NCBI GenBank assembly: GCA_022822665.1
Contig: JAJEAR010000027.1
Location: forward strand, 1 to 64,000
Direction: 5' to 3'
Source: Alphaproteobacteria bacterium
GTDB taxonomy: Bacteria; Pseudomonadota; Alphaproteobacteria; Thalassobaculales; Thalassobaculaceae
DNA: 64,000 nt
Position numbers and translations under genes: made by a program. Numbering within the stretch: the stretch's first letter is position 1; every line of letters starts with the position of its first letter. The notes beneath the pieces are model-generated. The model saw nothing but the letters and a program-made list of their open reading frames with translations, had not been told where the DNA came from and made no database searches. Below are positions 8,206 to 64,000 of this stretch, in pieces.

Positions 8206-9304
8206 TTTGGCGGAAAAGCTACTGAGCCACTACCTGAATTGGGGGCCGGCGAAGAAAGCGGAAGAACGACGATTGCTGGAGGCGTTGGCGGCGTACAAAT
8301 ATGACGAGTACCAACAGTTCAAGCCAGGCAGGAGGTTTGTTGAGAGCTTGGCTTTGTGGTTGAGGCAATTCAAGTCACTGACGGAAAGGGAAACCGCGTA
8401 CGACTTTGTGAAGGGTCGGCTGATATTTGTATCGGAGGCGGAAATGGTTCACTTGGTACAGTTGGCGTTCCCTACGATCATAAGGCCGCATTTGATGAAG
8501 TTAGTGGCCGAAGAGAATGGCATTGCGCCATATCGAGTCAAGGCCATCTGTGAGTCTCAAGAGTTCCGGCACTTGCTCAGACGAACGCTGTTTCTGGGCC
8601 TCAGCGATGGAGCGCGCACAGACCAGCTGCGGCGGGCAAATCCACGCACTTTGTCTAACGAGCAGATTTGGCACGCGTACGATGTATCGGAGGCTAAAGT
8701 ATCGGATCTTCGAAGCGAACTAAGGAAAGACCTAGGCTCTCAGATCAGCGAGGAAGAATGCTCTTTTAGCACTGTCGTGCTATTGGACGACTTCACAGCG
8801 AGCGGAACGAGTTATATCCGGAAGGACGACTGCACAAGTAAATGGAGTGGAAAGATCCCGAAGGTGCTGGAGAGATTGGAGGCAACCGAAAATTTGGGAA
8901 GTCTGGTAGCACGAAACAATTTGAAAGTCATCGTTTTGATCTACGTGGCATCCGCGCAGGCGGTGGGGCACATACAGGAAATGATTAGGGAGGTGCCGTT
9001 TTCTATGGGTGAGATAGACTTTTTCGTACTTTACGAAATTGGTGAGGACGTCCAACTACGTTCGCCAGGCGACGACGGGATATTGTCAGTAGCGAGTGAT
9101 TCGCACTATTATGATAGTGCAGTGGATGATAAGCACGCCGCTGTCGGAGGGACGACGTATCAGATGGGGTACGCGAACTGCCGGTTGCCGGTGGTTCTTA
9201 GTCACAATACGCCGAACAACTCTATATATTTGCTTTGGGCGGAGGAAGAATCAAGAATAAATGGTCTATTTCCTAGAGTTAGCCGACATAGGGAATATGA
9301 GTGA
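8195..9304 (+). CDS. Phosphoribosyltransferase-like protein (operon gene 2)
   Basis: A 369-residue protein with the PRPP-binding signature of type I phosphoribosyltransferases: VVLLDDFTASGTSYI, with the acidic pair D198-D199 and the TASGTS phosphate loop. The ~180-residue N-terminal part is helical and charged. It fits the group described as conflict-associated PRTases (PRTase-CE) and named phosphoribosyltransferase-like in automated annotation; that naming is from memory. Such enzymes use PRPP and a base or another acceptor. The start at 8195 lies 11 nt inside gene 1, and its stop is overlapped by gene 3 by one base, so translation is coupled. The acceptor cannot be read from sequence. Confidence 0.85.
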   Translation: MKRDLAEKLLSHYLNWGPAKKAEERRLLEALAAYKYDEYQQFKPGRRFVESLALWLRQFKSLTERETAYDFVKGRLIFVSEAEMVHLVQLAFPTIIRPHLMKLVAEENGIAPYRVKAICESQEFRHLLRRTLFLGLSDGARTDQLRRANPRTLSNEQIWHAYDVSEAKVSDLRSELRKDLGSQISEEECSFSTVVLLDDFTASGTSYIRKDDCTSKWSGKIPKVLERLEATENLGSLVARNNLKVIVLIYVASAQAVGHIQEMIREVPFSMGEIDFFVLYEIGEDVQLRSPGDDGILSVASDSHYYDSAVDDKHAAVGGTTYQMGYANCRLPVVLSHNTPNNSIYLLWAEEESRINGLFPRVSRHREYE

Positions 9305-11202: not shown

Positions 11203-12331
11203 GCCTGGGGTAATGAGGTGGGATCCCTACGTACTTGCTCGTGGGACAGATTTCGATGGATTCTGGAGGGATCAACTTCAGCGTAGTAGGCGTGATGTAT
11301 TAATGGTCGTAGGTCGAGGTTTTGACGTTCGTGCTTTGGATGTTTCCGAGCGACTGCTTGGGATAGGAGGACATGGGCGAAGAGATGCGTGGCTAATGGA
11401 TTTCGATAACGGGCAGGTGGATAGTGAGCAAAGGATCGAAATGACAAGAGACAATTTAGAAGGCTATGAGAGACTGTTTGGCGACAGAGTAGTTAACACG
11501 CTGGAAATTGCTTTAGGAAATGCGCAACGCCCCACCGCAACGTCGAGAAACACTAAAAGGGCCTTTGCGAACGCAAATTCCTTCTTATGCTACGACGATA
11601 TTGTTTTGGACATTAGTGCTGTTCCGAGGATGGTGGCGCTGACGGCTTTGGCGGTGTTAATTGCGCGGCTGGACGATGTCTTGGAAAACAATGGCAAGAA
11701 CATTAATCTGCATGTGACAACTGCTGAGAGTGTGACATCCGATCGCAGTACGGTAAGCGGATCATTGAGCGACGTTGTGACCACAATTGTTGGATTTTCT
11801 GGTAGCAAGAATGCTCAAAGCGATGAGTTCATGCCGAGAGTGTGGTTTCCTGTGCTAGGGGAACACCAGGAAGCGAGACTATTGAAGATAAGGGACGACC
11901 TGATGCCGGACGAAATTTGTCCAGTCCTGCCATTCCCGTCTCGGGAACCTAGAAGAGGCGACGAAATAATCGCAAGTTATCAGCAGACACTATTCGACGA
12001 TTTTCAGATCGAGCCGCGCAATATTTTGCATGCATCTGAATTCAATCCATTCGAAGCTTACAAGCAGATTTTTTGGGCAATCGATCGGTATCGAGATGCG
12101 CTGGCCGACCTTGGGGGGTGCAAGGCCTATGTATCACCACTATCGTCTAAGCTTCTGTCGGTGGGAGCGTTGTTAGCGTGTTACGAACACAAGACGCGAG
12201 GGAGTGCCAATAGAAAGTTGGATGTGGGAATGCCTTATGTGGAGTCATTGTCCTATGGAGACGTTAGCCAGAGCAGAGACGACCCACGCGAACTGTATTC
12301 GATGTGGATAAGGGGAGGATGGGAGACATGA
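11192..12331 (+). CDS. Unrecognised protein of the five-gene operon (gene 4)
   Basis: A 379-residue soluble protein that I do not recognise. It starts with GTG at 11192, inside gene 3, behind a GGGAGGTG ribosome site. Visible features are an alternating hydrophobic strand-like run near residues 35-45 (DVLMVVGRGFDVRALD), an acidic DISAVPRM segment, FSG and PFPSREPRRGDE motifs in the middle, and a glycine/serine turn SPLSSKLLSVGALLA near the C-terminus. The repeated strand-loop-helix rhythm suggests a Rossmann-like fold and possible ligand binding (inference, weak). It ends in an ATGA overlap with gene 5. Candidate roles are sensor or effector, since genes 1, 2 and 5 look metabolic and gene 3 is the ATPase. 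Confidence 0.8.
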   Translation: MSIEPGVMRWDPYVLARGTDFDGFWRDQLQRSRRDVLMVVGRGFDVRALDVSERLLGIGGHGRRDAWLMDFDNGQVDSEQRIEMTRDNLEGYERLFGDRVVNTLEIALGNAQRPTATSRNTKRAFANANSFLCYDDIVLDISAVPRMVALTALAVLIARLDDVLENNGKNINLHVTTAESVTSDRSTVSGSLSDVVTTIVGFSGSKNAQSDEFMPRVWFPVLGEHQEARLLKIRDDLMPDEICPVLPFPSREPRRGDEIIASYQQTLFDDFQIEPRNILHASEFNPFEAYKQIFWAIDRYRDALADLGGCKAYVSPLSSKLLSVGALLACYEHKTRGSANRKLDVGMPYVESLSYGDVSQSRDDPRELYSMWIRGGWET

Positions 12332-13419
12332 AACGCATTGGCGTACAAGTTCGCCAAACAGAAGAGGGACCCGTGTGCATCGGCTGTGGGTTTGTTGCGC
12401 TGGACATTGTCGAGGGAGAAAGGGGGCATTTTGCGGCAGCGGGCGGTTCATGTGGGAACGTGATGGCAATTCTCAGCTGGCTGGGCTGGAATTCACAGCT
12501 TATCGCACGGTTAGGCAATGACGAGGCGGGGGACCTCGTTGCGGTTGAGCTCGAGGCGGAAGGTGTCGACGTAACTCGGCTAGTGCGGCAAAGTTCTGTG
12601 ACTACACCAATTGTTATTCAAAGGTTTGTCACGAGCAAAGAGGGGGGACGAGTCCATCGATTTTCGATTTCGTGCCCGGAGTGCGGCGCATGGCTGCCGA
12701 GATACAGGCCGATAACGCTTAAGCAAATTGAAACAGTGGTATTGACAGACGATGCGCCGAAGGCCTTTTACTTTGATCGCGTAACCCCGGCCGCACTGAG
12801 GGTGAGTAAGTGGGCAAGGGCAAAGGGGTCTCTGATCGTATTCGAGCCGTCATCTATCGGCGACGAAGGGATGTTTCGCAGGGCGGTGGAGGACTGCGAC
12901 GTATTGAAGTATTCTAAGGAGCGGCTTGGACATGTTCCGGATCTGGCGGCTAGCGGTAAGCCGAAGCTGATTGTGGAAACGGCGGGAGCGGAAGGTTTAG
13001 CACTACGCTGGAAAGGAAAGTGGAGTCACTTACCGGCATTTGAGGTAGAGAAGATACGGGATGCGGCTGGATCAGGCGATTGGTGTACGGCAGCGCTTAT
13101 TCACAAACTCGGGGGCGTTGGTTGCGTGGGCTTGTCTCGGTTGAAGAGGTCGGACGTAGAAGACGCACTGCGCCTTGGTCAAGGTCTGGCGGCATTAAAC
13201 TGCATGTTTGAAGGAGCCCGAGGCTTGATGAGCAATAAGGATATTGCTTCCACAAATGTGGGTTTGAAGGTGTTGCAGGAACGATCAAATGTTCCAGACG
13301 AGTGGACGGTACGCAAAGATGGGTATTCCACTGTCCCAGAGAGGGTGTGTGAGTTATGTAAGCCGAAAGAGAGCGGGTCGGGACAAGGTCAAGCAAGGAG
13401 GGTTAGGGGAACGGTATAG
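12328..13419 (+). CDS. PfkB-family carbohydrate/nucleoside kinase with three CxxC motifs (operon gene 5)
   Basis: A 363-residue ribokinase-fold protein. The PfkB N-terminal signature is visible as GGSCGNVMAILSWLG (residues 39-53) followed by RLGNDEAGD. The C-terminal signature is DAAGSGDW at 245-252, keeping the catalytic-base Asp251, with Ser where Ala is usual in GAGD. Unusual for the family are three CxxC pairs, C17/C20, C116/C119 and C341/C344, which could bind zinc. PfkB kinases phosphorylate ribose, nucleosides or sugar phosphates (family knowledge). The start at 12328 follows GGGGAGGATGGGAG and overlaps the gene 4 stop (ATGA). With the PRTase and SIS-HAD proteins it suggests a pathway around a ribosyl compound (inference). 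Confidence 0.87.
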   Translation: MKRIGVQVRQTEEGPVCIGCGFVALDIVEGERGHFAAAGGSCGNVMAILSWLGWNSQLIARLGNDEAGDLVAVELEAEGVDVTRLVRQSSVTTPIVIQRFVTSKEGGRVHRFSISCPECGAWLPRYRPITLKQIETVVLTDDAPKAFYFDRVTPAALRVSKWARAKGSLIVFEPSSIGDEGMFRRAVEDCDVLKYSKERLGHVPDLAASGKPKLIVETAGAEGLALRWKGKWSHLPAFEVEKIRDAAGSGDWCTAALIHKLGGVGCVGLSRLKRSDVEDALRLGQGLAALNCMFEGARGLMSNKDIASTNVGLKVLQERSNVPDEWTVRKDGYSTVPERVCELCKPKESGSGQGQARRVRGTV

Positions 13420-13516
13420 GGTCCGCGAATGGTTTTGTGGGTAGCTAGTAGGTTACGCGGACATCGTGGGTGTTTGGTGGCTTGAGTGAGATACTAAAGA
13501 AAAAAACAGCGTGCGC

Positions 13517-14698
13517 TCACGTAGTCGTCTTGTCAGCATGAGTAACGGGCGACAGGTTCCCGCCGATGCTCCCGGTGATCCGGGCCGCGGCGTTCTGGAT
13601 GGAATCCCGGGCCAAGTGAGCGTACCGCGCCGTGGTCTGCACCTGCGTGTGACCAAGCAGTTTTCCGATCATCGTGAGGCTTTCGCCCAGGGCCAGCGCC
13701 CTCGACGCATAGGAGTGCCTGAGGTCATGAATTCGCACGTCCTCCAGCCCGGCGCGCGTGCGGATGCGGCGCCAGGGGCGCTGGAGATCGGTGAGATGGG
13801 TGCCCGGCACCTTGCCGCGGATGACCCAGGGATTGTCCTCCTCGCGGGGCAGGGCCGCCAGCACGGCACGGGCCTCGGGCCCGAGCGGCACGGCCCGCCC
13901 GCCGGTCTTCGCGTCGGGGAGCTCGATGCAGTCATCCCTGACGTATTCCCAGCGCAGGAACTGGATCTCCGACAGCCGGCAGCCGGTCAGCAGCAACAGG
14001 CGGAAGGCGGCGACCGCGGACGGCATCTCGCTCTCGGCCTCTGCGAGGACCTCGCCCAGCCGCTCGGTCTCCTCGGCCGACAGGAACCGCTCGCGCTTGC
14101 TCTCCTTGTAGCGCTTGACGTGCCGGCAGGGGTTGGACCCGTCGGGCCGCAGGCCCCAGATTTCGGCGAGCGAGAACATCTTGGAGAGGACGCCCAGCGT
14201 CCGGTTCGCCTGGTAGGGCTTGTCGCGCAGGTCGAAGTGCAGCTTGGCGATGTCCTTGCGCTCCACGCCGGCGATCCGCATCCCGCCGATCGCAGGGTCG
14301 ATGAACAGCTCCACCGACCGCCGGTATTCCCCCTGGGTGCTGGGTTTGCAGTGGACGGGGACATACTCCTCGAGGAAGCGCCGGCCGAGATCGGCCATGA
14401 CCGGCTCGGCCTGCTGCTTGGCATCGGCATCGCGCGGATCGATGCCGTTCTTCGCCTGGGCCAGGATCTCCAGCGCTGCGGCCCTCGCCTCATCGGCGGT
14501 GATGCGCCCGTGCAGGCCGAGGGTGAACCAGCGCAGCTTGCCGCGGACGCGGGTCTGGAGGACGTAGTTCTTCCGGCCCGACTTCCGGATGCGGAGGGCG
14601 AAGCCGGTCAGCTCGCCGTCCCAGTAGATCGTATCGGCGCCGTTCGGCTTGATGGCCTCCACGGCGCGCCTGGTGAGCTTGGGAATGCGGTTTGGCAT
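13517..14698 (-). CDS. Tyrosine-recombinase integrase, P4/DUF4102 type (first copy)
   Basis: A 393-residue phage-type integrase. The DUF4102-like N-terminal arm-binding domain (IYWDGELTGFALRIRKSG) is followed by a core SAM-like domain and the catalytic domain: TGCRLSEI (Arg), HDLRHSYASRAL (His-x-x-Arg), LGHTQVQTTARYAHL (His and nucleophile Tyr). All catalytic residues are present, so it should be active. The start at 14698 (MPNRIPKL) is preferred over an upstream in-frame extension. It converges with the five-gene operon and lies next to a tRNA-3'-end-like sequence, as expected of an integrative element. It resembles the integrase at 21340-22530. Confidence 0.95.
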   Translation of the reverse strand: MPNRIPKLTRRAVEAIKPNGADTIYWDGELTGFALRIRKSGRKNYVLQTRVRGKLRWFTLGLHGRITADEARAAALEILAQAKNGIDPRDADAKQQAEPVMADLGRRFLEEYVPVHCKPSTQGEYRRSVELFIDPAIGGMRIAGVERKDIAKLHFDLRDKPYQANRTLGVLSKMFSLAEIWGLRPDGSNPCRHVKRYKESKRERFLSAEETERLGEVLAEAESEMPSAVAAFRLLLLTGCRLSEIQFLRWEYVRDDCIELPDAKTGGRAVPLGPEARAVLAALPREEDNPWVIRGKVPGTHLTDLQRPWRRIRTRAGLEDVRIHDLRHSYASRALALGESLTMIGKLLGHTQVQTTARYAHLARDSIQNAAARITGSIGGNLSPVTHADKTTT

Positions 14699-17926: not shown

Positions 17927-19999
17927 ATGAAGTATCGGGCCGATATAGACGGGCTGCGAGCTCTCGCCGTGTTGCTGGTGGTCGGGTATCATGGTGCGCC
18001 AGACATAGTTGCAAAAGGCTTTATTGGAGTCGATATATTTTTTGTCATAAGTGGCTATTTGATAACGCACATAATCCTTGAACGTGTCCTTAAAGGTGAA
18101 TTTTCTATTTGGTGGTTTTTCTCTCGTCGCATAAAGCGTTTATTTCCCGCACTCATACTCGTGATGCTATTCGTGTTGATCTTTGGGTGGTTCTCTCTTC
18201 TGGCGGAGGAATACGATCTTCTCGGCAAGCATGTTGTTGGTGGTGCATTCTTTGTAGCAAATTTTCTGTTTGCGGCAGAGGTGGGTTATTTTGATGTTTC
18301 GGCACTATACAAGCCGCTACTTCATCTATGGAGCCTTGCTGTTGAGGAACAGTTTTATCTGTTCTTCCCTGGATTTCTGCTCTTCCTTTACGCGTGTCGA
18401 GCCAATATCATGGCAATCTTGTTGGTTGCGTTCGTTTGTTCTCTATTGTTCGGCATTTACGAGGCTTCTGTGGCGCCGGGGCGTGCATTTTTTCTGCCAC
18501 TTGCGCGATTCTGGGAATTGCTGGCGGGCGGCATCTTGGCCTGTGGGACTCTTCGCTGGGGTGCGGACATTTCCACTGTCTGGCACCGGGCAGACAGGTA
18601 CCTGTCGGACCTCATCGAACGAGTTGGCCTTGGTGCAGTCCCGAGTGTCCGCGCTGCCACCCTCGTATCGGGAGCCGGGTTCCTGTTCATTGCCGGCGCA
18701 CTGTTTCTGATCCCTGACGGGGTCGCGTATCCAGGAGTGGCGGCAATGCTGCCGGTTGCTGGCGCATTCTTCATCATTATGGCGGGGCCTGAGGCCGGCT
18801 TCAATCGCATCCTGCTGACGAACCGCCCAGCAATCTGGTTCGGTCTTATCAGCTATCCACTCTACCTGTGGCATTGGCCGGTCCTCTCCTTCATGGCCAT
18901 CGTTGACGGAGATCTACCTCATCGGGACGCACGTCTGATTGCCATGTGCAGTTGCGTACTTTTGGCGTGGGCAACCTATCAATTTATTGAAAAGTATATC
19001 CGACATCATCACTCAAATACAGTGGTGCCAGCCCTTTTACTTGTAACCATAACACTAACAGGAGCGGGAGGAGGTATGGTTTATATTGTTGATGGGGTTA
19101 AAGAGCGAAAATGGTTACAAAACGAATTTTCTCACAATGGAGACATACAGTCTTTGCATCCGGAGTATAAAAGAGGAAGTACGTGGATTTGTCCGCGGGT
19201 GAATGCCAAAGGAGCAATCTGTACCAGCACGGGAGAGCGACCATCAGTTGTTGTTATTGGAGACAGTCACGCTTTAGCAACATATGCAGTGTTGCGTCAC
19301 ATTTACAGGGACAAAGAATTAGATATAGGGTTGGTTGGAATTGGCGGTTGTCCATCATTGCTAGGTGTCGTAAGCCATGATCCAGGCACATCGGACACAA
19401 GACAATGTCCGCAATACATGGACTTTACGCTAAATACAATACTTGAACAAAAGCATGTCAAACATATTGTTTTATCGAATCGCATTGCATTGTACGTTAA
19501 CGGAACGGGCTTTGGAAGGAAAGAAAGAGGTTTATCTGGATGGGTCTTTCACAAGAATGGGGAAAAAAACAAGCAAATGAGAGTTGATGTATTTTTTGAT
19601 GCGCTGCGTGATACCGTTCGTCGCGCACATGAAGCCGGCAAACGCATATCAATCGTACATGGTACGCCGGAACTGGGGTTCGACGTCAAGTCGTGTGCAC
19701 CGCTCCGGCCGTACGTCATGAAACCTGCCCGGAAAGTGTGTGCCATCAAGCGATCGGAATTTGAAAGTAGAACCCGATCCTATCGCGAACGGTTGGCCGG
19801 ATTCCTGAGAGAACACCCAGAAGTCGGAAGTGCCAATATTTCATCGGCCCTTTGTGATGCCGAGCTGTGTTATGGGGCAGGCAAGGGAATCCTGTACTAC
19901 ATGGATGATGATCATCTCAGTCGCTGGGGAGCGCTTCATGTCAGTGAGCATGTCGCGCGCGAGCTCGGCGAACTGACCGGTCGAATTCCAGACCGGTAG
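17927..19999 (+). CDS. OafA-like membrane acyltransferase with SGNH domain
   Basis: A 690-residue integral membrane protein. The acyltransferase-3 domain starts at once (MKYRADIDGLRALAVLLVVG, then GVDIFFVISGYLI) with about ten or eleven hydrophobic segments up to about residue 385. A periplasmic SGNH hydrolase-like domain follows: VVVIGDSHALA near residue 443 and DDDHLSRWGALHV near 660 supply the Ser and Asp-x-x-His. Such proteins O-acetylate LPS O-antigen, peptidoglycan or exopolysaccharide sugars (family knowledge). ATG 17927 begins exactly at the family N-terminus; the open frame upstream has no homology. The gene is AT-richer than the chromosome, and surface-modifying acyltransferases are common cargo of mobile regions and phages. 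Confidence 0.93.
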   Translation: MKYRADIDGLRALAVLLVVGYHGAPDIVAKGFIGVDIFFVISGYLITHIILERVLKGEFSIWWFFSRRIKRLFPALILVMLFVLIFGWFSLLAEEYDLLGKHVVGGAFFVANFLFAAEVGYFDVSALYKPLLHLWSLAVEEQFYLFFPGFLLFLYACRANIMAILLVAFVCSLLFGIYEASVAPGRAFFLPLARFWELLAGGILACGTLRWGADISTVWHRADRYLSDLIERVGLGAVPSVRAATLVSGAGFLFIAGALFLIPDGVAYPGVAAMLPVAGAFFIIMAGPEAGFNRILLTNRPAIWFGLISYPLYLWHWPVLSFMAIVDGDLPHRDARLIAMCSCVLLAWATYQFIEKYIRHHHSNTVVPALLLVTITLTGAGGGMVYIVDGVKERKWLQNEFSHNGDIQSLHPEYKRGSTWICPRVNAKGAICTSTGERPSVVVIGDSHALATYAVLRHIYRDKELDIGLVGIGGCPSLLGVVSHDPGTSDTRQCPQYMDFTLNTILEQKHVKHIVLSNRIALYVNGTGFGRKERGLSGWVFHKNGEKNKQMRVDVFFDALRDTVRRAHEAGKRISIVHGTPELGFDVKSCAPLRPYVMKPARKVCAIKRSEFESRTRSYRERLAGFLREHPEVGSANISSALCDAELCYGAGKGILYYMDDDHLSRWGALHVSEHVARELGELTGRIPDR

Positions 20000-20226
20000 C
20001 TCAACGTCGAGGTCGACCCATGTCTGGACCCGCACCGTAAGGGTGTCGGGTGATTATCGGCTTCGCGGTGCGCCAGGAGGCAAGGGAAATGTCGGCATCC
20101 GTCCAGGCCGGTCCGGGCTACCCATGCTTCGCGTCTAGTGGCCCAATTCTGAAGTGTTGATGATTTCCTCCTGCCGATCAGCGGTTTGGAGAGTCCGCAG
20201 GCAGAAGCGCTTGATGGTGGCCAGGA
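20000..20226. other. Intergenic stretch between the acyltransferase and the intron tail
   Basis: No gene seen. It carries scattered motifs like the edges of insertion sequences (for example around 20140-20170) but I could not define inverted ends. Confidence 0.3.
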
Positions 20227-55437: not shown

Positions 55438-55883
55438 CGCCCATTCCTCCGTGCCGGCACCACATCCGGTGGACTGTTCCAGACCACCGGGACAAATGCA
55501 AATGCGCATGTCCGCGACACCGCACAGTCGGAGAGCGCATGGTCCCGGGCATGCTCCGGTGCCGGAGGACATGGAACCGGCGGCCGTGGCGGAAAAGCGG
55601 GTTCAGGAAACGAGCGGCGAGCCTCGGCGCGCGACCGTGCCGGATCCGCCGCCGGATTCGCTTCTGCGCCACGTGGTGTGAGAGCTTCTACTGCTCGTCA
55701 GACCTGAGGAGCAGCACACGGCCGACATGGGGCTGAAGGAGCGCTGGAAGGCGCTGGGCGATGCCGTCGGCGCCCGGCTCGGCTGGCTGACCGGCCCGGT
55801 AGTAACTGAATTTTTCCTGCTGATACGTCCGTATCTGACGTGCCCCTGCATTAGGTTCTCTCGACAATCGGATGGAGAGAGTC
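55438..55883. other. Boundary between chromosome and the right-hand accessory operon
   Basis: About 445 bases. A plus-strand frame starting at 55727 begins MGLKERWKALGDAVGARLGW and then loses its character after about 24 codons, as if a small host gene had been cut. AT-richer sequence with a TAGTAACTGAA word follows from 55800. The promoter of the AAA/WYL operon is expected here. No tRNA or clear inverted end found. Confidence 0.4.
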
Positions 55884-57962
55884 ATGCTGACCGCCTACGA
55901 ACGCCATCTCATCGCTTTCTACCTCGCCAACGCCGCCGATCGGTTTCACCACCGGGACCGGGAAGCGACCGACCTTGCCAGTTGGATCGCCGGCAGCGAC
56001 CGCCGTCATGCGTTCTACGGAAGGCGGGGCCCGATCTCATGCCTGATCCGCGACCTCGACGAGGCCGGGGAGTCCATGTCCGCGCGCCACCTCCGCCACC
56101 TCCGCCACGCCCTGCGCGAGGAGTGTGCGGCGACGAGGACTGCGAGGCCTGACCGGACGGCGCGACGCCTCCGGCAGCTTGGCCAGGCGACAGGCCTCAA
56201 ACCGATCGACGTCGACATCCTGGAAGTGCTGCTGCGCTACCAGACCCAGCCGGTGATCGAGTCCATGGTCGACGACATCTTCGGTCGCGCCAGCAGGCGC
56301 GTGGTGCCCTTCAACGTGAGGGGCACGGCGATTCCCTTTCTCCTGGGAGTATCACCGGGCGCCGTTTACCGGCGTTTCGCGCCCGGTGCCCCGCTGGTGA
56401 GTTCGGGACTTGTCGTCATCGACAGTGATGGCGACATGACGCCCGTCGACCGCCTGCGGCGGCTGGCAACGCTTCCCGGCCGGGCGGGGCTCGACGTGAA
56501 CCGTCTGCTGCTTGACGCCGCGCCCGGAAGCGAGCTCGGGTGGGCGGACTTCGATCACATTGCCGAGGGACGCGATCATATCGAACGCCTGATCCGTGGA
56601 GCGATGGAAAGCGGGGCGGCGGGGGTGAACGTGCTCCTGCACGGCCCGCCCGGGACAGGCAAGACGGAGTTCTGCAAGGTGCTGGCGGCGCGGCTCGGCG
56701 CGACCCTCTACAGCGTCGGGGAGGCCGACGACGACGGCGACGAGCCCAGCCGCCGCGAGCGCCTGCAGGACCTCCGCCTCGCCCAGCGGCTTCTCAGGCG
56801 GAACGACAACTCGCTGCTCCTGTTCGACGAAATGGAGGACCTGCTGTGGGATTCCGCCGGCGGCGGGATGTCCCTGTTCGGGCAGCCGCTCTTCGCAAGC
56901 CCCCGTGGCGGGAGTTCCAAAGTGTACATGCACCGGCTGCTGGAACGCGCGCCGGCGCCGACGCTCTGGACGATGAACGACGCCGGTCCGGTCAGCCGCG
57001 CGCTGCTTCGGCGCATGATGTTCGCGCTTGAACTGCGCCGGCCGACGGCAGCGGTCAGGGCACGCATCTGGACCCGGCAGCTCGAGCAGCACGGGATCGA
57101 GGCCGGACCGGGCGAGGCCGACGCCCTCGCGCGGGAATTTGCCGCGACCCCTGGTGTTGCGGCCGGCGCCACCGCGGCCGCCCGGATCGGGGGCGGAGGG
57201 ATCGACACCGTGCGGCGCGGGGTGCGCGGCCTCTCCCGGGTGCTCGGCTGCGAAGCCCCGCCGCAGGGAACGCCGCCGCGCTTCGAGCCCGCGTTGATCC
57301 ACGCCGATGTCAACCCTGTCACGCTCGCCGATCGCCTCGTTGCCGGCGGGGACCTGCGCTTCTCCCTCTGCCTCCAGGGACCGCCAGGTACCGGCAAGAG
57401 CGCCTTCGTGCGCTACCTCGCCGAGCGCATGGGGCTGGAAATCATGCAGAAGCGTGCCTCCGACCTGATGTCGATGTGGGTTGGGAGCACGGAGAAGGCG
57501 ATCGCCTCCGCCTTCGCCGAGGCCCGCGACACCGGCGGCTTCCTGGTCTTCGACGAGGCGGATTCGCTGCTCGCCGACCGCCGGTCCGCCCGGCAGGGCT
57601 GGGAAGTCAGCCAGGTGAACGAAATGCTGACCTGGATGGAGAGCCACCCGCTTCCTTTCGCCTGCACCACCAACTTCGCCGAACACCTGGACGCAGCGAC
57701 CCTGAGGCGCTTCGTCTTCAAGATCGCGCTCGACTACCTCTCACCGGAGCAGGTGGAGACGGCGTTCCGGGTGTATTTCGGGATGGCGCCGCCGGCGCAG
57801 GCTGCGGCGCTGACCGCCCTGACGCCGGGCGATTTCGCGGTGGTGCGCAGGAAGGCCGAATTCCTTGGCAGGCTGGAGGAACCGGACGCGCTGGCGGCCA
57901 TGCTGAGCGCTGAGTGCGCCCTCAAGCCGGACCGGCCCCAGCCCGTCGGCTTCAGGCCTTGA
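55884..57962 (+). CDS. Double AAA+ ATPase (AAA family, two modules)
   Basis: A 692-residue protein. An N-terminal helical domain (MLTAYERHLIAFYLANAADR) leads to two AAA+ modules. Module 1: Walker A GPPGTGKTE near residue 253 and Walker B LLLFDEMEDLL near 312. Module 2: Walker A GPPGTGKSA near 499 and Walker B FLVFDEADSLLADR near 554. Both keep Lys and Asp-Glu. Module 2 is of the VPS4/SpoVK type. ATG 55884 has GGAGAG upstream. It leads the operon with the WYL regulator, suggesting a mechano-enzyme acting on nucleoprotein or protein targets (inference). Gene families of this kind are common on integrative islands. Confidence 0.9.
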   Translation: MLTAYERHLIAFYLANAADRFHHRDREATDLASWIAGSDRRHAFYGRRGPISCLIRDLDEAGESMSARHLRHLRHALREECAATRTARPDRTARRLRQLGQATGLKPIDVDILEVLLRYQTQPVIESMVDDIFGRASRRVVPFNVRGTAIPFLLGVSPGAVYRRFAPGAPLVSSGLVVIDSDGDMTPVDRLRRLATLPGRAGLDVNRLLLDAAPGSELGWADFDHIAEGRDHIERLIRGAMESGAAGVNVLLHGPPGTGKTEFCKVLAARLGATLYSVGEADDDGDEPSRRERLQDLRLAQRLLRRNDNSLLLFDEMEDLLWDSAGGGMSLFGQPLFASPRGGSSKVYMHRLLERAPAPTLWTMNDAGPVSRALLRRMMFALELRRPTAAVRARIWTRQLEQHGIEAGPGEADALAREFAATPGVAAGATAAARIGGGGIDTVRRGVRGLSRVLGCEAPPQGTPPRFEPALIHADVNPVTLADRLVAGGDLRFSLCLQGPPGTGKSAFVRYLAERMGLEIMQKRASDLMSMWVGSTEKAIASAFAEARDTGGFLVFDEADSLLADRRSARQGWEVSQVNEMLTWMESHPLPFACTTNFAEHLDAATLRRFVFKIALDYLSPEQVETAFRVYFGMAPPAQAAALTALTPGDFAVVRRKAEFLGRLEEPDALAAMLSAECALKPDRPQPVGFRP

Positions 57963-58052
57963 AATAGCGGTGTAACCCGCCCGTCTACCGCGTCTTTCTG
58001 CCGCCCGACAGGTTGGAAGGCGCGGAATCAGGGGGCCGGAAGGAGAAATCTG

Positions 58053-59042
58053 TTGCGCTACGAACGTGTGAAGGACGTCCTCACGCTGGCGATCCGCATG
58101 CAGGGCCTGCGCTCCGGCGTGACCCTCGATGACATCCGTGAGGAATTCGATGTCAGCCGGAGCACCGCCGAGCGCATGCGTGACGCGGTCGATTGGGCCT
58201 TCGGTCCGCTGGAGACCGTGGAGAGCGGCGACAACAGGCGCCACTGGCGGCTCGGCTCCGACGCACTGCGCCGCCTTGTCAGGATATCGGCCACCGAGCT
58301 GGCGGACCTCGCGGCCGCGGCAGACACCCTGGACGCCACCGGGTTCGGCGAGCGCGCATCCGCGCTGCGGGAACTGGACACCCGGCTGCGGGCCACGCTG
58401 CACACCGCCTCGCTGGCGCACATCGAGGCCGACATCGAGATGCTGGCCCAGGCCGAGGGGCTCGCCATGCGTCCCGGTCCCAGGCAGCAACTCAACAGGG
58501 GTCTGCTCGACAGTCTCCGCGAGGCCATCGCGACCCGCCGCATCGTCGAGTTGTGCTACCTGTCCCAGTCCACGGGCCGGTACAGCCGCCGGCGGATCGA
58601 GCCCTACGGCCTCCTTTACGGCAACCGCGCCTTCCTGATCGGCCGGACGGAGCGGGCCGGCGACATGCGGCTGTGGCGTCTCGCGAACATGAGCGAGACG
58701 CGCCTGACCGGCGAGGCCTTCACGCGCGACCCGGAATTCGATCTGGAGTCCTATGCACGGCGTTCCTTCGGCACCTTCCAGGAGGAGCCGGTGGACGTGG
58801 TGCTGCGCTTCGCCGCCGGAGCGAAACGGGACGCATCCGGGTTCCTCTTCCACCCCGGTCAATCCATCGAGGAGAACGCGGACGGCACGCTCACGGTCCG
58901 CTTCACCGCCGGCGGCATCGACGAGATGTGCTGGCATCTCGTCACCTGGGGCGAGGCCGTCACGGTGGAAGAGCCCGACCGGCTTCGCCATCGCCTCGCC
59001 GAAATGTGCGCCGCGCTGGCCGCGCATCACGGACCCCGATAG
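58053..59042 (+). CDS. WYL-domain transcriptional regulator
   Basis: A 329-residue regulator. A DeoR-type helix-turn-helix lies at residues ~1-70 (GVTLDDIREEFDVSRSTAER) and a WYL domain near 155-225 (ELCYLSQSTGRYSRRRIEPY, then GLLYGNRAFLIG), with a C-terminal extension RFTAGGIDEMCWHLVTWG. WYL proteins bind ligands, often nucleic-acid-derived, and control phage-defence and DNA-damage loci (family knowledge). TTG 58053 is used, preceded by GAAGGAG. It sits between the ATPase and the nuclease genes and likely controls this operon. Confidence 0.92.
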   Translation: MRYERVKDVLTLAIRMQGLRSGVTLDDIREEFDVSRSTAERMRDAVDWAFGPLETVESGDNRRHWRLGSDALRRLVRISATELADLAAAADTLDATGFGERASALRELDTRLRATLHTASLAHIEADIEMLAQAEGLAMRPGPRQQLNRGLLDSLREAIATRRIVELCYLSQSTGRYSRRRIEPYGLLYGNRAFLIGRTERAGDMRLWRLANMSETRLTGEAFTRDPEFDLESYARRSFGTFQEEPVDVVLRFAAGAKRDASGFLFHPGQSIEENADGTLTVRFTAGGIDEMCWHLVTWGEAVTVEEPDRLRHRLAEMCAALAAHHGPR

Positions 59043-59056
59043 AAGGAGGACTCACC

Positions 59057-59599
59057 ATGGCCTGGCAAGGATCCCTGGACGGCCTTTGCGGCCCCTACGC
59101 GATCGTCAACGCCTATGATCTCTGTGGTATCGAGGAGGACTGGCTGGGCCAGGACATCTTCAATATCGCGTGTCTGGCGATCGACGACTGGCCGGAGGCG
59201 CTGTGGGACGGAACCACCTTCGGGCAGATGAGAACGATGCTCAAGGCCTGTCAGAAGGCGATGAACAAGGCGTACAGGAAAGCCGACTGCGCGTACCCGA
59301 TCGAAATCGACTATCCCTTCCGCGGGAACCCGCCGGGCACCGGCAAGCAATTCCGGAAGCGGCTTCACGAGGTATTTTCCCGCGACGACGTGATCTGCGG
59401 AATCGTCGGGATGGAGAAGCCCTCCGCCCACTGGTTCTCCTTCGTCAAGCACAGGGAGGCACTGATCGTCATCGACTCGGCTCCCCCCGGGGCGGGCGGT
59501 ACGAGCCGCATCGGGCTGGACGACCTCCATGTCCGGCGAGGCAGGAAGAGGGAATTCGTGCTCAACCCCGAAGAGCTGATCGTATTCCGGGAGACGTGA
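59057..59599 (+). CDS. Papain-like-fold (C39-like) protein
   Basis: A 180-residue protein with the motif SLDGLCGPYAIVNAYDL, carrying Cys11 in the position of a cysteine-peptidase nucleophile, then His near 124 (EKPSAHWFSFVKH) and Asp near 140 (LIVIDSAPP), which together would form a Cys-His-Asp triad. AAGGAGG lies nine bases before ATG 59057. It resembles papain-like or C39-type proteins encoded in such AAA/WYL cassettes (from memory). Activity is not certain; it may cleave or bind a partner of the operon. Confidence 0.75.
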   Translation: MAWQGSLDGLCGPYAIVNAYDLCGIEEDWLGQDIFNIACLAIDDWPEALWDGTTFGQMRTMLKACQKAMNKAYRKADCAYPIEIDYPFRGNPPGTGKQFRKRLHEVFSRDDVICGIVGMEKPSAHWFSFVKHREALIVIDSAPPGAGGTSRIGLDDLHVRRGRKREFVLNPEELIVFRET

Positions 59600-59687
59600 C
59601 CATGCCGCCGCAGGCTTGTGCAGCGATCGATCGTCTGGCAACAGGAGGCGCCGCCGCCGTGACGCTGCCGCCACCGGGACATGTGAC

Positions 59688-62357
59688 GTGAATATCGGGG
59701 ATTCGCCGCGCCGGACGATCGTTGCCCACAGCCGGCTCGGGATGCGGGAGTTGCGGCTGGAGGCAGCCCGGAACAGGCGGCACGGGCTCCAGGTCATGAC
59801 CTTCGAGCAGCTCGCGGCGCGGCTGGCGGGCGGACTGACACGGCCCGTCGACGACGACGCTCTCAGGCAGGCCATCGTGGCCGTCCTGCCGGAGACCGAT
59901 CTCGGCGAGCTGGACGGGATCAAGACGCTGCCGGGCATGATGGGCGCCGCTGCCGACACCCTGCGCAAGGCGTGGCGGGCCGGCCTCGACCTTCAGGCCC
60001 GGGCCGGCGAGCATCCGCGCCTGCGGTCCATCGCCGGCCTGGAGAATGCGGTCGTGGCGGCGTTGCCTCTGTCCAGGGTGAGGCCCGCCGATCTCGTCAC
60101 CGCCAGCCTCGAGCGGCTGGATCACGCGGCGGCGCTGTTCGGGCCCATCGAGATCGTCGGCATCACCGAGCTCTCGCCGGTCTGGAGACCCCTTTTGCAC
60201 GCCATCGCCCTCCACGTGCCGGTGCGCTGGAACGCGGGTCCCCGCCCGGTGCCCGACTGGCTCGATGGCAAGGCCGTCGAGATCGTGCGCGACGAGGCGA
60301 AATCACCGGGCATCTCCGCCGTGAGCGCGGCCACTGCCTACCACGAGGCGGTCGAGGCCATGCGCTGGGCGCGCGAGCTGCTCGCGTCCGGCAGGGCGGA
60401 GCCCGCCGACATCGCCATCGCCTCGGCCATGCCAGCCGAGTATGACGACCACCTGCTCGCGCTTCGTGCCGACGCCAATCTGGACCTGCACTTCGTGCAC
60501 GGCGTCACGGTCACGGCCAGCCGGGAGGGGCAGGCGGCGGGGGCGCTCGCGGACATCCTGCTGCGCGGCCTCTCCCAGACGCGAATGCGACGGCTGAACA
60601 CGCTGCTAAGCGCGCATGCCGGCCCGTTCGCGGACCTGCCGGAGGGCTGGACGCGCATCCTGCCGGCCGGAGCGCCGCTCTCGTCTCCCGAGGCCTGGAT
60701 GCGCCTGATCGGCGGATTGAGCGCCACCGACTGGCCGGACGGAAGCGACCGCGGCCCGGTGCTCGCCGGCATCGTCGACCTGCTGTCCCGGGGCATCGAG
60801 GCTGCGGACATCGCAGGGAAGACACTGCTGAGCGGGCGTGCGCGCGATATCTGGCGCAGGGTGCTCGCGGAGGGTCCCGCCGCTTCGCTTGACCTTACCC
60901 TGGAAACGCTCAGGCAGGACGACGGCATCGATCCCTGCGTTTCGGCGTGCTGGATGCCGGCCAACGCGCTCGCCGCATCACCCCGCCCCTTCGTCCGGCT
61001 GCTCGGCCTCAACTCCGCGCGCTGGCCGCGCGCCATGGTCGAGGACCGGCTCCTCTCCGACCACATCGTGCCTGCAGCCGAGCTCGATCCGCTGCCCGTT
61101 GCCGCCGCCGACCGCCGGGATTTCGCAACCATTCTGGCGACGACGGAGAGCGAGGTCGTGCTGTCCCGCGCCCGGCGCGGCGAGGACGGCCGGCTGCTCG
61201 GCCGCAGTACCCTTCTTCTTCGGGTCGAGGCCCCCGAGACCTATGTGCCGCGCAACCGCGTGCCCGCGCACGCCTTCAGCGAGACCGACCGGCTGACGGC
61301 GCGGCCCGACGAGTTCCGTCGCCTGCCGCAGGCGGAGGCCGCGTCGGGGTGCTGGTTCGACTGGCTGCGTGAGGAGATCACGCCGCACGACGGGGTCGTG
61401 CGACCCGACCACCCGGTGATCCAGGCCATTCTCGAACGCATCCAGTCGGCGAGCTCGCTGCGCATGCTCCTGCGCAACCCACTCGGGTTCGTCTGGCGCT
61501 ACGGGCTGCGCTGGCGCGCGCCCGAGAGCGGAGAGGATCCGCTGGTCCTCGATGCCCTCGCCATGGGCGATCTCGTTCACCAGATCCTGGACCGGGCGCT
61601 TCGCACGCTGGAGGAGGACGGCGGTCTCGCCGGCGCATCGGAACAGCGGATCGACAGCGCCATGGATGGCGCCGCCATCGAGATCGCGGCATCCTGGGAA
61701 GCCGCGCAGGCGGTGCCCCCGCACGTCATCTGGCGCCGCGCGCTCGACGGGGTGCGCGCGCTGGGCGGCCCGGCACTCGGCATCCGCGACGCGGATCCCG
61801 CCGACGTGCGCGCCTATGGCGAGGTCCCGTTCGGCGGGTTGGAACCCAGGTCCGACGGTGCGGTCCCGTGGGATGCCGGGGCCGCGGTCGAGATTGCCGG
61901 TACCGGGTTCGGCATCGCGGGATACATCGACCGCCTGGACATCTCCGCCGACGGTGGACGCGCGCTGGTGCGCGACTACAAGACCGGGCGCATTCCCAGG
62001 AACGACATCGTCCTCGACGGCGGCAGGGAACTGCAGCGCTGCCTCTACGCCTACGCGGTGAAGGCGCTGCTGGGCGAGGACGTGTCCATCTCGGCGTCGC
62101 TCCTCTATCCGCACGAGGATCGGGACCTGCGGCTCGACGACCCGGACGCGGTGCTCGAAACGCTCGCCGGCCACCTGCGGGCGGCCCGCGCCAGTCTCGC
62201 CTCCGGTGGCGCGGTGATGGGCGCGGACACCGGCAACACCCATGACGACCTCGCCTTCGCCCTCCCGGCCAACGTCGGCGCCGTCTACCGCGTCCGGAAG
62301 GAGGCGGCCGCGAACGCACGCCTCGGCGATGCGACCCGTGTGTGGGATGCCCCGTGA
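59688..62357 (+). CDS. RecB-type PD-(D/E)XK nuclease (AddB-like)
   Basis: An 889-residue protein. The N-terminal part resembles the inactivated helicase domain of AddB (IVAHSRLGMRELRLEAARN and LQVMTFEQLAARLAGG). The C-terminal nuclease domain has the RecB-family motifs ALAMGDLVHQILDRAL near 625 and LVRDYKTGRIP near 760 (Asp...DYK of the PD-(D/E)XK site). AddB and AddA together form a DNA-end-processing complex. GTG 59688 is chosen as the first sensible start; ATG codons nearer residue 18 are alternatives. It overlaps the helicase gene by one base (TGATG). It may be a cassette copy rather than the chromosomal addB (inference). Confidence 0.88.
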   Translation: MNIGDSPRRTIVAHSRLGMRELRLEAARNRRHGLQVMTFEQLAARLAGGLTRPVDDDALRQAIVAVLPETDLGELDGIKTLPGMMGAAADTLRKAWRAGLDLQARAGEHPRLRSIAGLENAVVAALPLSRVRPADLVTASLERLDHAAALFGPIEIVGITELSPVWRPLLHAIALHVPVRWNAGPRPVPDWLDGKAVEIVRDEAKSPGISAVSAATAYHEAVEAMRWARELLASGRAEPADIAIASAMPAEYDDHLLALRADANLDLHFVHGVTVTASREGQAAGALADILLRGLSQTRMRRLNTLLSAHAGPFADLPEGWTRILPAGAPLSSPEAWMRLIGGLSATDWPDGSDRGPVLAGIVDLLSRGIEAADIAGKTLLSGRARDIWRRVLAEGPAASLDLTLETLRQDDGIDPCVSACWMPANALAASPRPFVRLLGLNSARWPRAMVEDRLLSDHIVPAAELDPLPVAAADRRDFATILATTESEVVLSRARRGEDGRLLGRSTLLLRVEAPETYVPRNRVPAHAFSETDRLTARPDEFRRLPQAEAASGCWFDWLREEITPHDGVVRPDHPVIQAILERIQSASSLRMLLRNPLGFVWRYGLRWRAPESGEDPLVLDALAMGDLVHQILDRALRTLEEDGGLAGASEQRIDSAMDGAAIEIAASWEAAQAVPPHVIWRRALDGVRALGGPALGIRDADPADVRAYGEVPFGGLEPRSDGAVPWDAGAAVEIAGTGFGIAGYIDRLDISADGGRALVRDYKTGRIPRNDIVLDGGRELQRCLYAYAVKALLGEDVSISASLLYPHEDRDLRLDDPDAVLETLAGHLRAARASLASGGAVMGADTGNTHDDLAFALPANVGAVYRVRKEAAANARLGDATRVWDAP

Positions 62358-64000
62358 TGGCGGCCCGACCTCCGGTTCTTTCCGACGATGCCGCGCGGCG
62401 CGAGGCCGTCGCGGTTCGCGACCGCTCCTTCCTGGTGGAGGCCGGCGCGGGATCGGGCAAGACAGCGGTTCTGGCGGGCCGGATCGCGATGCTGCTGGCG
62501 GCTGGCGCGGCCCCCATGTCCATTGCCGCGGTGACGTTCACCGAGTTCGCCGCGAGCGAGTTGCTCATTCGGGTACGGGCCTTCGTGACCGCGCTTGCGG
62601 CCGGCACCATTCCTGTCGAGCTTCGCTCCGCCCTGCCGAGCGGCCTGTCGCAAGAGCAGCGCGGCAACCTCGACCGGGCCGATGCGGCGCTCGACGAGAT
62701 GACCTGCTCGACCATCCACGGCTTCTGCCAGCGGCTGATCACACCCTATCCGGTCGAAGCCGATATCGACCCCGGGGCCTCCGTGATGGACCGCGACCAG
62801 GCGGAGTTCGCCTTCGGCGAGATCGTCGACAATTGGCTGCGGAACGAACTCGCCGGCGAGGAAGGCGGCCTGCTTGCCGAGCTGGTTCTGCACGATCCCG
62901 ACGCAACCATCACGCTGATCCGCACCGTCCTCGGGCATCTCCGCCGGCATCGGGAGTTCACTCCCTACGAACTGCAGGACCTCGATCAGCTCGCTGCCGG
63001 GTTCCGGAAAGCGGTGGAGGGTTTGACCACGTTCCTGGACCAGGCCGAGGCCAGGGAACCTGAAACCGTCGCCATCGCCGGCCACTTCGAAGCGCTGGCC
63101 GGGAACATCGGGCCCGCATTGCCGGCAGATACACCCGCCCGGCTCGTTGCGTTGTTGCTCGTGACGCCCCACGACGACCTTCTGAAGTCCACCGGCGGCG
63201 GGTTCTACGCGTACCGCAAGAAGGGGAAGTGGGCAGCGGCCGGGAAGCGCGCGGGCCTGGCCAAGGCCGATGTGGAGCGGCTGAACGCGTCGGCCAGTGC
63301 TCACTATGATCACTGTGGCCGGACCTGGACCGGGTTTCACCAGGCGGTTGCCACCCATGTCCTCGCCGGTCTCGTGCCGCTGGTCGAGCCCGTCATGGAC
63401 CTGTTCCGCGAGTACAAGCGCGCCGCCGCACTTCTCGACTTCGACGACCTGATATTCTCGGCGCGTGATCTCCTGCGCGACCACGATGAGATACGCCGCG
63501 CACTCTCTGCGCGGTTCCGCCACGTCCTCGTCGACGAGTTCCAGGACACCGATCCGCTGCAGACCGAGATATTCTGGCGCCTCTGCGGCGAGCCGCCCGG
63601 GGACGGCGATGGCACCGACTGGCCGTCATTCGCGATTCGGCCGGGCGCGCTGTTCCTGGTCGGCGATCCCAAGCAGGCGATCTACCGTTTCCGCGGCGCC
63701 GATATCGCGGCCTATGTCCAGGCGCGCGACGCGTTCCGCGCCGGGGCCGGGGACGCCGTGCTCTCGATCGCCACGAACTTCCGCTCCCGCGCGCCGATCA
63801 TGGAATACGTGAACGCGCGCTTCGAGACAGCACTTTCCGAGGAGAACGGCCAGCCCGGTTTCCAGGCCCTCGACCCCTTCCGGTCACCACGGGACGGGCG
63901 ACCCTCGGTCGCCGCACTGGATGTCGAAGTTGCCGACGAGGACGGCAGGGCCAATGCCCGGCAACAGCGCGACGGGGAGGCCGAGGCCGTCGCCGAACTG
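62357..64000 (+). CDS. UvrD/AddA-like helicase, cut by the window end
   Basis: 548 codons are visible. Walker A is LVEAGAGSGKTAVLAGR near residue 30, motif Ia is VTFTEFAASELLIRVRAF, and later SARDLLR, VLVDEFQDTDPLQTEIF (Walker B, near 390), LFLVGDPKQAIYRFRGADI and LSIATNFRSRAPI match superfamily 1 helicases of the UvrD/AddA group. The usual C-terminal helicase motifs and the AddA nuclease domain lie outside the window. The start overlaps the upstream nuclease stop (TGATG), so the pair is translationally coupled, as AddB-AddA pairs are. The frame is open to the last base. Confidence 0.92.
   Translation, partial: MAARPPVLSDDAARREAVAVRDRSFLVEAGAGSGKTAVLAGRIAMLLAAGAAPMSIAAVTFTEFAASELLIRVRAFVTALAAGTIPVELRSALPSGLSQEQRGNLDRADAALDEMTCSTIHGFCQRLITPYPVEADIDPGASVMDRDQAEFAFGEIVDNWLRNELAGEEGGLLAELVLHDPDATITLIRTVLGHLRRHREFTPYELQDLDQLAAGFRKAVEGLTTFLDQAEAREPETVAIAGHFEALAGNIGPALPADTPARLVALLLVTPHDDLLKSTGGGFYAYRKKGKWAAAGKRAGLAKADVERLNASASAHYDHCGRTWTGFHQAVATHVLAGLVPLVEPVMDLFREYKRAAALLDFDDLIFSARDLLRDHDEIRRALSARFRHVLVDEFQDTDPLQTEIFWRLCGEPPGDGDGTDWPSFAIRPGALFLVGDPKQAIYRFRGADIAAYVQARDAFRAGAGDAVLSIATNFRSRAPIMEYVNARFETALSEENGQPGFQALDPFRSPRDGRPSVAALDVEVADEDGRANARQQRDGEAEAVAEL

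Follow-up and report, generated by a model that had tools for sequence, protein, structure and literature searches.

Introduction

AddAB-type DNA repair enzymes are routinely inhibited by phages. In the canonical form (the alphaproteobacterial TIGR02784 type) the AddB gene precedes the AddA gene, AddA is an SF1 helicase with a C-terminal PD-(D/E)XK nuclease and AddB has a nuclease of its own; its role is Chi-regulated recombinational repair. Among described defence systems, ietAS couples an AAA ATPase with a protease (the subtilisin-like IetS), whereas Gabija, Hachiman and UvrD-Cas4 are of the nuclease-helicase immunity type. WYL/BrxR-type regulators stand beside defence genes and have an inverted repeat upstream of the genes that they regulate; BrxR binds inverted repeats (PMC9122601).

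Here we analyse a stretch of 64,000 nucleotides (the window) from an alphaproteobacterium that is probably sponge-associated. A preliminary description had interpreted five genes at the end of the window as a DNA-end-processing or anti-phage operon, distinct from housekeeping AddAB. The non-housekeeping character of the AddAB-like pair and its linkage to defence are borne out, and a single conserved operon is not: the genes resolve into two mobile modules, one formed by an AAA+ ATPase, a WYL regulator and an effector slot, the other by a portable AddBA pair. The reading that we favour, with a probability of about 0.6, is a composite cassette of two exchangeable modules with a putative anti-phage function. 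Overall, the evidence points to a modular, largely unnamed immune locus.

Organization and conservation of the locus

Five co-oriented genes occupy positions 55884-65749 on the plus strand, the last of them running beyond the end of the window:

55824-55841 (+): inverted-repeat element TACGTCCGTATCTGACGT with arms ACGTC/GACGT, upstream of the AAA gene; candidate WYL operator
55872-57962 (+): ATPase with two AAA+ modules and a helical N-terminal domain, similar to p97/Cdc48/Rix7 (Pfam PF00004, 8.6e-32); start probably 55884
58053-59042 (+): WYL-WCX transcriptional regulator, TTG start (PF13280, 1.4e-12; PF25583, 3.6e-15)
59057-59599 (+): third, variable slot: cysteine protease-like protein with a papain (clan CA-like) fold (Q4/C11/H125/D140 invariant; AlphaFold model)
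59688-62357 (+): AddB1, AddB-like, with a PD-(D/E)XK nuclease domain; GTG start (PDDEXK_1, 1.1e-17)
62342-64000, on to contig position 65749 (+): AddA1, AddA/RecB-like UvrD helicase-nuclease (UvrD-helicase, 5e-53)

In gene order, the intergenic gaps are 90, 14 and 88 bp, followed by a 16-bp overlap between AddB1 and AddA1. The operon ends with AddA1, downstream of which lie DUF3047-like, dapA-like, tauD and guaA genes. A scan of the locus for promoters and terminators, using a simple sigma-70 model that may not suit a GC-rich genome, found none. In the sister species (G385) the whole block is colinear at the same genomic place with 89.4% nucleotide identity, and four of the five genes have Ka/Ks values of 0.25-0.40; the block is thus no chance pile-up of open reading frames. 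Flanking genes have values of 0.08-0.16, and we count the faster evolution of the locus genes as defence-like support. For the papain-like gene, selection is not demonstrated by its Ka/Ks of 0.74 (0.44-1.34), although its four key residues are nonetheless invariant. The five plus-strand genes of the preliminary description are therefore present as described, on the evidence of domain matches, invariant residues and colinearity with G385.

The AAA-WYL module and its third slot

The ATPase is matched twice by Pfam AAA, and the Walker A and B motifs of both modules, the sensor Asn and the Arg fingers are invariant across 25 homologues, the features of a double-ring AAA unfoldase of the p97/Cdc48/Rix7 type; Foldseek returns Rix7, p97 and NVL at E values of about 1e-15. 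Its best PADLOC matches are the IetA models (2e-25), with only the AAA core shared. Between the alternative starts at 55872 and 55884, the latter, chosen in the preliminary description, is probably correct since homologues start at the second Met.

The regulator carries both domains of WYL defence regulators, WYL and WCX, and directly follows the AAA gene in 46 of the 91 sampled loci whose flanks were long enough. The 18-bp element that precedes the AAA gene is identical in the window, in the sister species and in a related locus (L040). With at least 13 of 18 positions matching, it is found upstream of 45 of 89 AAA genes as against 15 of 1642 control pieces (about 1%), and its presence is associated with a nearby WYL gene (p 5e-5); the sole perfect match to its consensus in the 4.67-Mb genome is the site upstream of the AAA gene. 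This inverted repeat is a probable WYL operator, to which the regulator is predicted to bind. Before AddB genes no match to the element rises clearly above chance, except at locus L068, where the region upstream of AddB is the shared divergent region; co-regulation of AddBA would thus rest on read-through only.

The papain-like protein has no match in Pfam, PADLOC, NCBIfam or PHROG. Gln4, Cys11, His125 and Asp140 are invariant among eight homologues, and in the AF2 model (pLDDT 84.5) C11 sits in the first part of helix 8-22, H125 opens strand 125-132 and D140 comes just after strand 135-139, which is the clan CA layout of an oxyanion Gln, a Cys on a helix and His and Asp on a sheet. Foldseek matches of the model in the PDB are weak, with TM at most 0.5: the top match is 22oc (P210 CD lyase, 9.4e-4), and the papain-fold proteases are mostly of the Josephin/deubiquitinase type, among them Josephin BpJOS (4.7e-3). 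Relatives occur in 4 of 385 genomes of the class, its own included, and none was found on plasmids or viral contigs. One relative sits between hsdR and hsdM of a type I restriction-modification operon; two others (L120 and L121, 25-29% identical) lie among housekeeping genes and for this reason were left out of functional inference. Among AAA loci, the papain-like gene is associated with AddBA1 at p 0.004; leaving the window out raises the value to 0.07. At L040 the papain-like gene is replaced by a gene matching Pfam DUF6642. The notion of a caspase-like protease here, suggested by the stretches YLGYHG and HFASCS only, was rejected; given the Pfam match and no match in the PDB, we keep the protein as DUF6642.

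The AddB1-AddA1 pair

The full AddA1 reading frame (62342-65749; L008:8343-11750) encodes 1135 residues comprising a UvrD helicase and a C-terminal nuclease motif V.DWKSD, and AddB1 contains the motif G.IDR.D...V.DYK.G; the helicase and both PD-(D/E)XK nuclease motifs are intact and invariant in 11 AddA1 and 11 AddB1 sequences. A canonical addAB, accompanied as usual by nucleotidyltransferase and kinase-like genes, is encoded on another contig (C22) of the same genome, and the other genomes in which AddB1 was matched likewise have a canonical AddA. AddA1, AddA2 (of a second subfamily, AddBA2) and canonical AddA form separate clades, each with 100/100 support, and AddA1 falls outside the clade of chromosomal alphaproteobacterial AddA (100/100; 17 versus 12 sequences). 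The part of AddA1 within the window scores 135 bits against a cut-off of 861 for TIGR02784 and 143 against 708 for TIGR02785. For the preliminary description, a genome with no second addAB and a clear placement with chromosomal copies would have counted against its reading; we find a second addAB and separate clades, and reject a housekeeping identity.

AddBA1 is rare, being found in 8 of 384 other genomes. AddB1 also occurs on 63 plasmid records, 51 of them conjugative or mobilizable (39 typed conjugative), and was not found in phage genomes or viral contigs. In the window, the sister species and several MAGs the pair looks chromosomal, with no adjoining transfer genes. Fifteen of the 26 AddBA loci examined adjoin a recognised defence system—Azaca, Shango, Hma, BREX, type III restriction-modification or CBASS-like E1—and three more adjoin AAA-WYL. 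The genes adjoining AddBA1 include SngABC, ZacAB, HmaA, E1-E2, BREX-1 and a methylase with a helicase, and in the window's own genome a decayed AddA1 copy adjoins McrBC. In these 26 loci, adjacency of AddBA to known anti-phage systems is far more frequent than would be expected of a repair gene.

Recombination of the two modules

The exact five-gene order is found only in the window and the sister species. At L040 the order is kept, with AAA, WYL, AddB and AddA colinear at 72-78% identity to the window, and slot 3 alone is replaced. At L068 the same five genes are present with AddBA divergent; here identity to the window is 84-89% for AddBA, as against 58% for AAA, 59% for WYL and 49% for the papain-like protein, a contrast that indicates parts with different histories. 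At L039, where the AAA protein is 80% identical, there is no AddBA within 2.3 kb downstream. Most sampled AAA genes are without a nearby AddBA and AddBA1 is mostly without AAA-WYL, so that neither module need function with the other. They lie side by side in three AddBA1 loci, and AddBA2 adjoins AAA in six further loci. A five-gene operon conserved across bacteria is not supported by these loci.

Proposed function and alternatives

An anti-phage function is strongly suggested. We infer WYL repression, AAA-protease cooperation, DNA-end degradation in vivo, escape from inhibitors and an anti-phage effect, in the following manner. The WYL regulator would bind the 18-bp inverted repeat ahead of the AAA gene and so keep the cassette repressed. 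The p97-like ATPase would be an unfoldase that remodels a protein of the phage or of the host, and may work with any effector in the third slot, here the papain-like protease. AddB1-AddA1 would be a version of AddAB dedicated to immunity, loading on free double-stranded DNA ends, then unwinding and degrading them with its two nuclease domains to destroy linear phage DNA or fragments that a partner system has left. Since it is an additional and diverged copy, phage inhibitors of the housekeeping AddAB may fail to act on it.

How tightly the modules work together can be read in two further ways. They may be independent defence systems lying side by side in a defence island, each working alone and separated by short gaps that are accidental. 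The mostly separate occurrence of the modules, the discordant identities at L068 and the decayed AddA1 beside McrBC speak for this reading; we nevertheless consider it somewhat unlikely, as AAA, WYL, AddB and AddA are colinear with similar divergence in the window, G385 and L040, where only slot 3 has changed, and as the modules meet repeatedly, with AddBA1 as well as AddBA2. At the other extreme, all five genes could belong to a single, integrated machine of immunity whose protease slot is exchangeable; its AAA/protease part would sense a phage factor, e.g., an inhibitor of the host AddAB bound to DNA ends, and release or load the spare AddAB to destroy phage DNA, AddB1-AddA1 being a shared back end for many unrelated defence systems. 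This is a doubtful proposal that we offer speculatively.

Other explanations dispense with immunity. The pair might serve its mobile carriers, processing DNA ends in aid of their own transfer or killing competing plasmids, and the many AddB1 plasmids typed conjugative would fit; the chromosomal-looking copies without transfer genes, and the defence rather than tra neighbours of most loci, make this improbable. Least probable of all, to the point of being remote, is an accessory DNA-damage or recombination-repair operon under WYL control. AddAB-type enzymes do function in repair, and a mycobacterial WYL regulator responds to genotoxic stress (PMC10693628), but the AddBA1 genomes tested already have a canonical addAB, the pair is rare, plasmid-borne and placed beside restriction, BREX, Shango, Azaca and Hma genes, and a survey of Cas4/pfam12705 interpreted comparable neighbourhoods of nuclease-helicase proteins as defence (PMC5704561).

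If the two-module cassette is the right reading, bacteria maintain an additional AddAB specifically for immunity, and many unrelated plasmid-borne defence systems borrow it. This would provide a testable link between phage-inhibited repair enzymes and the systems that punish such phages. Defence-island annotation would gain two searchable modules and a candidate WYL operator motif marking the AAA-WYL module.

Comparison with known systems

Searches of PADLOC-DB 2.0.0 with the five genes gave no system-specific component: the papain-like protein and AddB1 have no match, and the others match generic AAA, WYL and helicase cores. In a limited literature search (mobile AddAB-like pairs, Shango/Azaca with AddB, multiubiquitin/DUF6361 contexts) we found no paper describing either module. 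In other genomes AddB1-AddA1 often has Azaca, Shango, Hma, BREX or CBASS-type E1-E2 directly next to it, but the window locus contains no gene of these systems and AddB1-AddA1 is not among their PADLOC components. The locus shares with Gabija, Hachiman and UvrD-Cas4 the nuclease-helicase type, and PADLOC GajB models match the helicase core of AddA1; this match is to a generic SF1 core, however, and the locus has no GajA, OLD/TOPRIM or HamA gene. With ietAS it shares an AAA ATPase coupled with a protease, but differs in having two AAA modules, a papain-like Cys-His-Asp protein in place of IetS and a WYL gene in between, and the ATPase scores 88.4 bits against the IetA NCBIfam cut-off of 510, in a match confined to the AAA core. 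As in WYL/BrxR-type regulation, a WYL gene lies beside defence genes and an inverted repeat upstream, although the candidate 18-bp element, with its 5-bp arms, precedes the AAA gene rather than the regulator. AddB1 matches TIGR03623 ("probable DNA repair protein", AddB-like) weakly, at 33.9 bits against a cut-off of 299.6, and is no member of that family. AddB1-AddA1 has the gene order and the domain plan of canonical AddAB, and among PDB entries the AddA structure 3u44 gives the best match by sequence, yet AddA1 is about 29% identical to its canonical counterpart, forms its own clade and scores far below the curated cut-offs, and the AddBA1 pair is mobile, has defence neighbours and coexists with canonical addAB.

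A five-gene locus shared with a sister species

The five open reading frames set out in the preliminary description are all present as described on the plus strand (55884-65749), encoding in order a double-AAA+ ATPase (AAA), a WYL regulator, a papain-like protein, AddB1 and AddA1; the last, of 1135 aa, extends past the window end as far as contig position 65749. Successive genes are separated by gaps of 90, 14 and 88 bp and then overlap by 16 bp, and a clear Shine-Dalgarno sequence serves the papain-like gene, 14 bp past the WYL stop. On the 5′ side the neighbor is a Zn-dependent alcohol dehydrogenase gene in divergent orientation; metabolic genes follow downstream. The block occupies the same place in a sister species of the genus (10,056 aligned bases, 89.4% identity), with both flanks kept. 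Between the two species Ka/Ks is 0.30 for AAA, 0.40 for WYL, 0.25 for AddB and 0.28 for AddA, compared with 0.08–0.16 for four flanking genes; these four proteins are therefore clearly under selection, yet evolve faster than their neighbors. The papain-like gene is the fastest-evolving of the five (0.74, with a wide interval of 0.44–1.34), a pattern compatible with an arms race or, alternatively, with relaxed selection.

The AAA protein is predicted to be a p97/Rix7-type double-ring ATPase with a helical N-terminal domain in front, and its Walker, sensor and arginine-finger residues are all invariant, as are the oxyanion Gln and Cys-His-Asp triad of the papain-like protein. A relative of the latter (~35% identity, catalytic residues retained) is encoded between hsdR and hsdM, within an operon for type I restriction-modification (gene order hsdR, papain-like, hsdM, hsdS; L119:1408-7659, minus strand), which provides independent support for a defense role.

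Elsewhere in the window, GC content falls from 0.65–0.70 to ~0.49–0.57 at 6001-13500 and 18001-20000, with strong GC skew at 8000-14000. Long plus-strand open reading frames follow one another at 6157-13419, and this region looks like foreign DNA.

AddB1-AddA1 and housekeeping AddAB

The proposal that this pair is not housekeeping AddAB was borne out. A canonical addB-addA pair resides on another contig of the same genome (C22), adjoining nucleotidyltransferase and kinase-like genes, and canonical AddA is present in every other genome with an AddB1 match and in the comparison genomes tested alongside. A 36-sequence tree separates canonical AddA (12), AddA1 (17) and a second non-canonical subfamily, AddA2 (6), into clades with 100/100 support each, whose branching order is not resolved. 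The catalytic motifs of the helicase and both nucleases are all invariant across 11 AddA1 and 11 AddB1 proteins. Across the class, 8 of the 384 other genomes carry AddB1; it was also found on 63 plasmid records, of which 39 are conjugative and 12 mobilizable.

The same genome carries a decayed remnant of a second AddA1 gene (L010:10333-10884; G000:C15:108368-108883, minus strand; 57% identity over 172 aa, with a stop inside) adjoining an McrBC-like pair, a trace of AddB1-AddA1 turnover in another defense island.

Two modules with loose affinity

The preliminary description also treated the five genes as one operon. Linkage of AAA-WYL to AddB1-AddA1 stands in the window, the sister species, L040 and L068, but the modules are mostly found apart: AddBA is absent from most AAA-WYL cassettes, and AAA-WYL from most AddBA loci. 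L040 (~79% DNA identity to the sister locus) is colinear with the window on either side of the third gene position, and the four shared proteins are 72–78% identical; only that position differs, holding a DUF6642 gene in place of the papain-like one (L040:4029-4640; 43% GC in a 66% GC locus). Its stretches YLGYHG and HFASCS are reminiscent of caspase-like His/Cys dyads. All five genes recur in L068, where the AddB1-AddA1 pair is divergent and 84–89% identical to that of the window, compared with 58% for AAA, 59% for WYL and 49% for the papain-like protein; the two parts were therefore joined separately. An AAA-WYL-papain set in L039 has no AddBA in the next 2.3 kb. In six further loci, the pair next to AAA (with WYL) belongs to the second AddBA subfamily. 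We conclude that the AAA-WYL cassette and AddB1-AddA1 form two modules whose affinity is real, if loose.

The six loci (L018, L019, L020, L023, L106, L110) carry this deeply separate AddB/AddA-like subfamily (AddA2, 100/100 clade), and an ADP-ribosylglycohydrolase is present in two of them.

The AAA-WYL cassette

At least 490 AAA relatives emerged from a profile search across 84,980 genomes; the best 80 of them, hence the closest rather than a random sample, are 39–89% identical. They come mostly from metagenome-assembled genomes (MAGs) of Alpha-, Gamma- and Deltaproteobacteria, Acidobacteria, Nitrospirae, Gemmatimonadetes, Latescibacteria, Binatia and others, many of which we take, from isolate names, to be sponge symbionts. 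Identities above 55% across phyla point to transfer or, in part, binning errors. WYL lies directly 3′ of AAA in 46 of 91 loci with enough flank and within 5 kb in 67 of 94. Behind WYL are found the papain-like protein (window, L039, L050, L058, L068), DUF2779, REase-ARP or RNase_H_2-helicase nucleases, or, in some loci, housekeeping genes (e.g., nuoG, thiC, hydantoinase); on plasmids this position is taken by an ADP-ribosylglycohydrolase alongside a HEPN-annotated gene, by RtcB, by Sir2 and by PD-(D/E)XK proteins. In loci where WYL was not detected immediately after AAA, its place may be taken by PDDEXK_4, Mrr or dnaX.

Two AAA homologues, each ~57% identical to the window AAA, occur in one Latescibacteria MAG locus (L061:1328-3409 and 10010-12091), a hint of tandem cassettes. 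Nineteen viral-collection contigs (L190-L208) encode double-AAA relatives (best 41–43% identity), which suggests that prophages may carry the cassette as well; the closest phage family is PHROG 10401.

A putative WYL operator

Aligning the pre-AAA regions of the window, sister species, L040 and L068 revealed an 18-bp inverted repeat, TACGTCCGTATCTGACGT, with arms ACGTC-N7-GACGT. At 13 or more of 18 matching positions, it is found upstream of 45 of 89 AAA genes, usually 20–75 bp ahead of the called start (consensus T-A/G-CG-T/A-CCG-N-A/T-TCTGACG-C/T), versus 15 of 1642 pieces drawn at random from those loci. Of the 45 loci with the element, 41 have a WYL gene no more than 5 kb away, versus 23 of the 44 without it (Fisher p = 5e-5). 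Kinship of the loci inflates both tests. Genome-wide, the only perfect match to the degenerate pattern is the site before AAA; sites with two mismatches are as frequent as in the controls, and no further copy of the element precedes AddB. Since BrxR-type WYL proteins bind inverted repeats (PMC9122601), the simplest reading is that the element is a putative WYL operator through which the cassette may be autoregulated by its own WYL protein.

Proposed role and neighbors of AddB1-AddA1

AddB1-AddA1 would be expected to unwind and cut DNA from ends. Phages commonly have end-binding proteins or inhibitors against RecBCD/AddAB (PMC12407980), and we conjecture that a diverged second copy might evade such inhibitors. 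A recognized defense system adjoins the pair in 15 of 26 loci, which were picked for diversity rather than at random and include several closely related rhizobial ones (PADLOC-DB 2023; gene calls heuristic in unannotated loci).

Neighbors of AddB1-AddA1 in the 26 loci
Azaca, by model match: L030 (ZacA/ZacB), L140 (ZacA)
Azaca, by DUF6361-PLD-helicase order or identical ZacA start: L033 (PLD gene split/altered), L141, L175, L176, L177
Shango: L032 (SngA/B/C models), L142 (SngC model), L035 (same gene order)
Hma: L138, L140
BREX-1: L031
CBASS-like E1-E2: L036
Type III RM-like methylase and helicase: L034, L178
AAA-WYL (3/26): window, L040, L068
Weak or annotation-only hints (3/26): L137 (TmtA-like), L139 (Dsr1-like), L181 (TOPRIM and helicase)
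No nameable defense neighbor: 5/26

In four rhizobial plasmid loci (L033, L175, L176, L177) AddB1-AddA1 is flanked by a multiubiquitin-ThiF(E1)-DUF6527 set on one side and an Azaca-like DUF6361-PLD-helicase set on the other, the order being conserved. Overall, these neighborhoods speak for AddB1-AddA1 as a portable accessory, not for its membership in any particular one of these systems.
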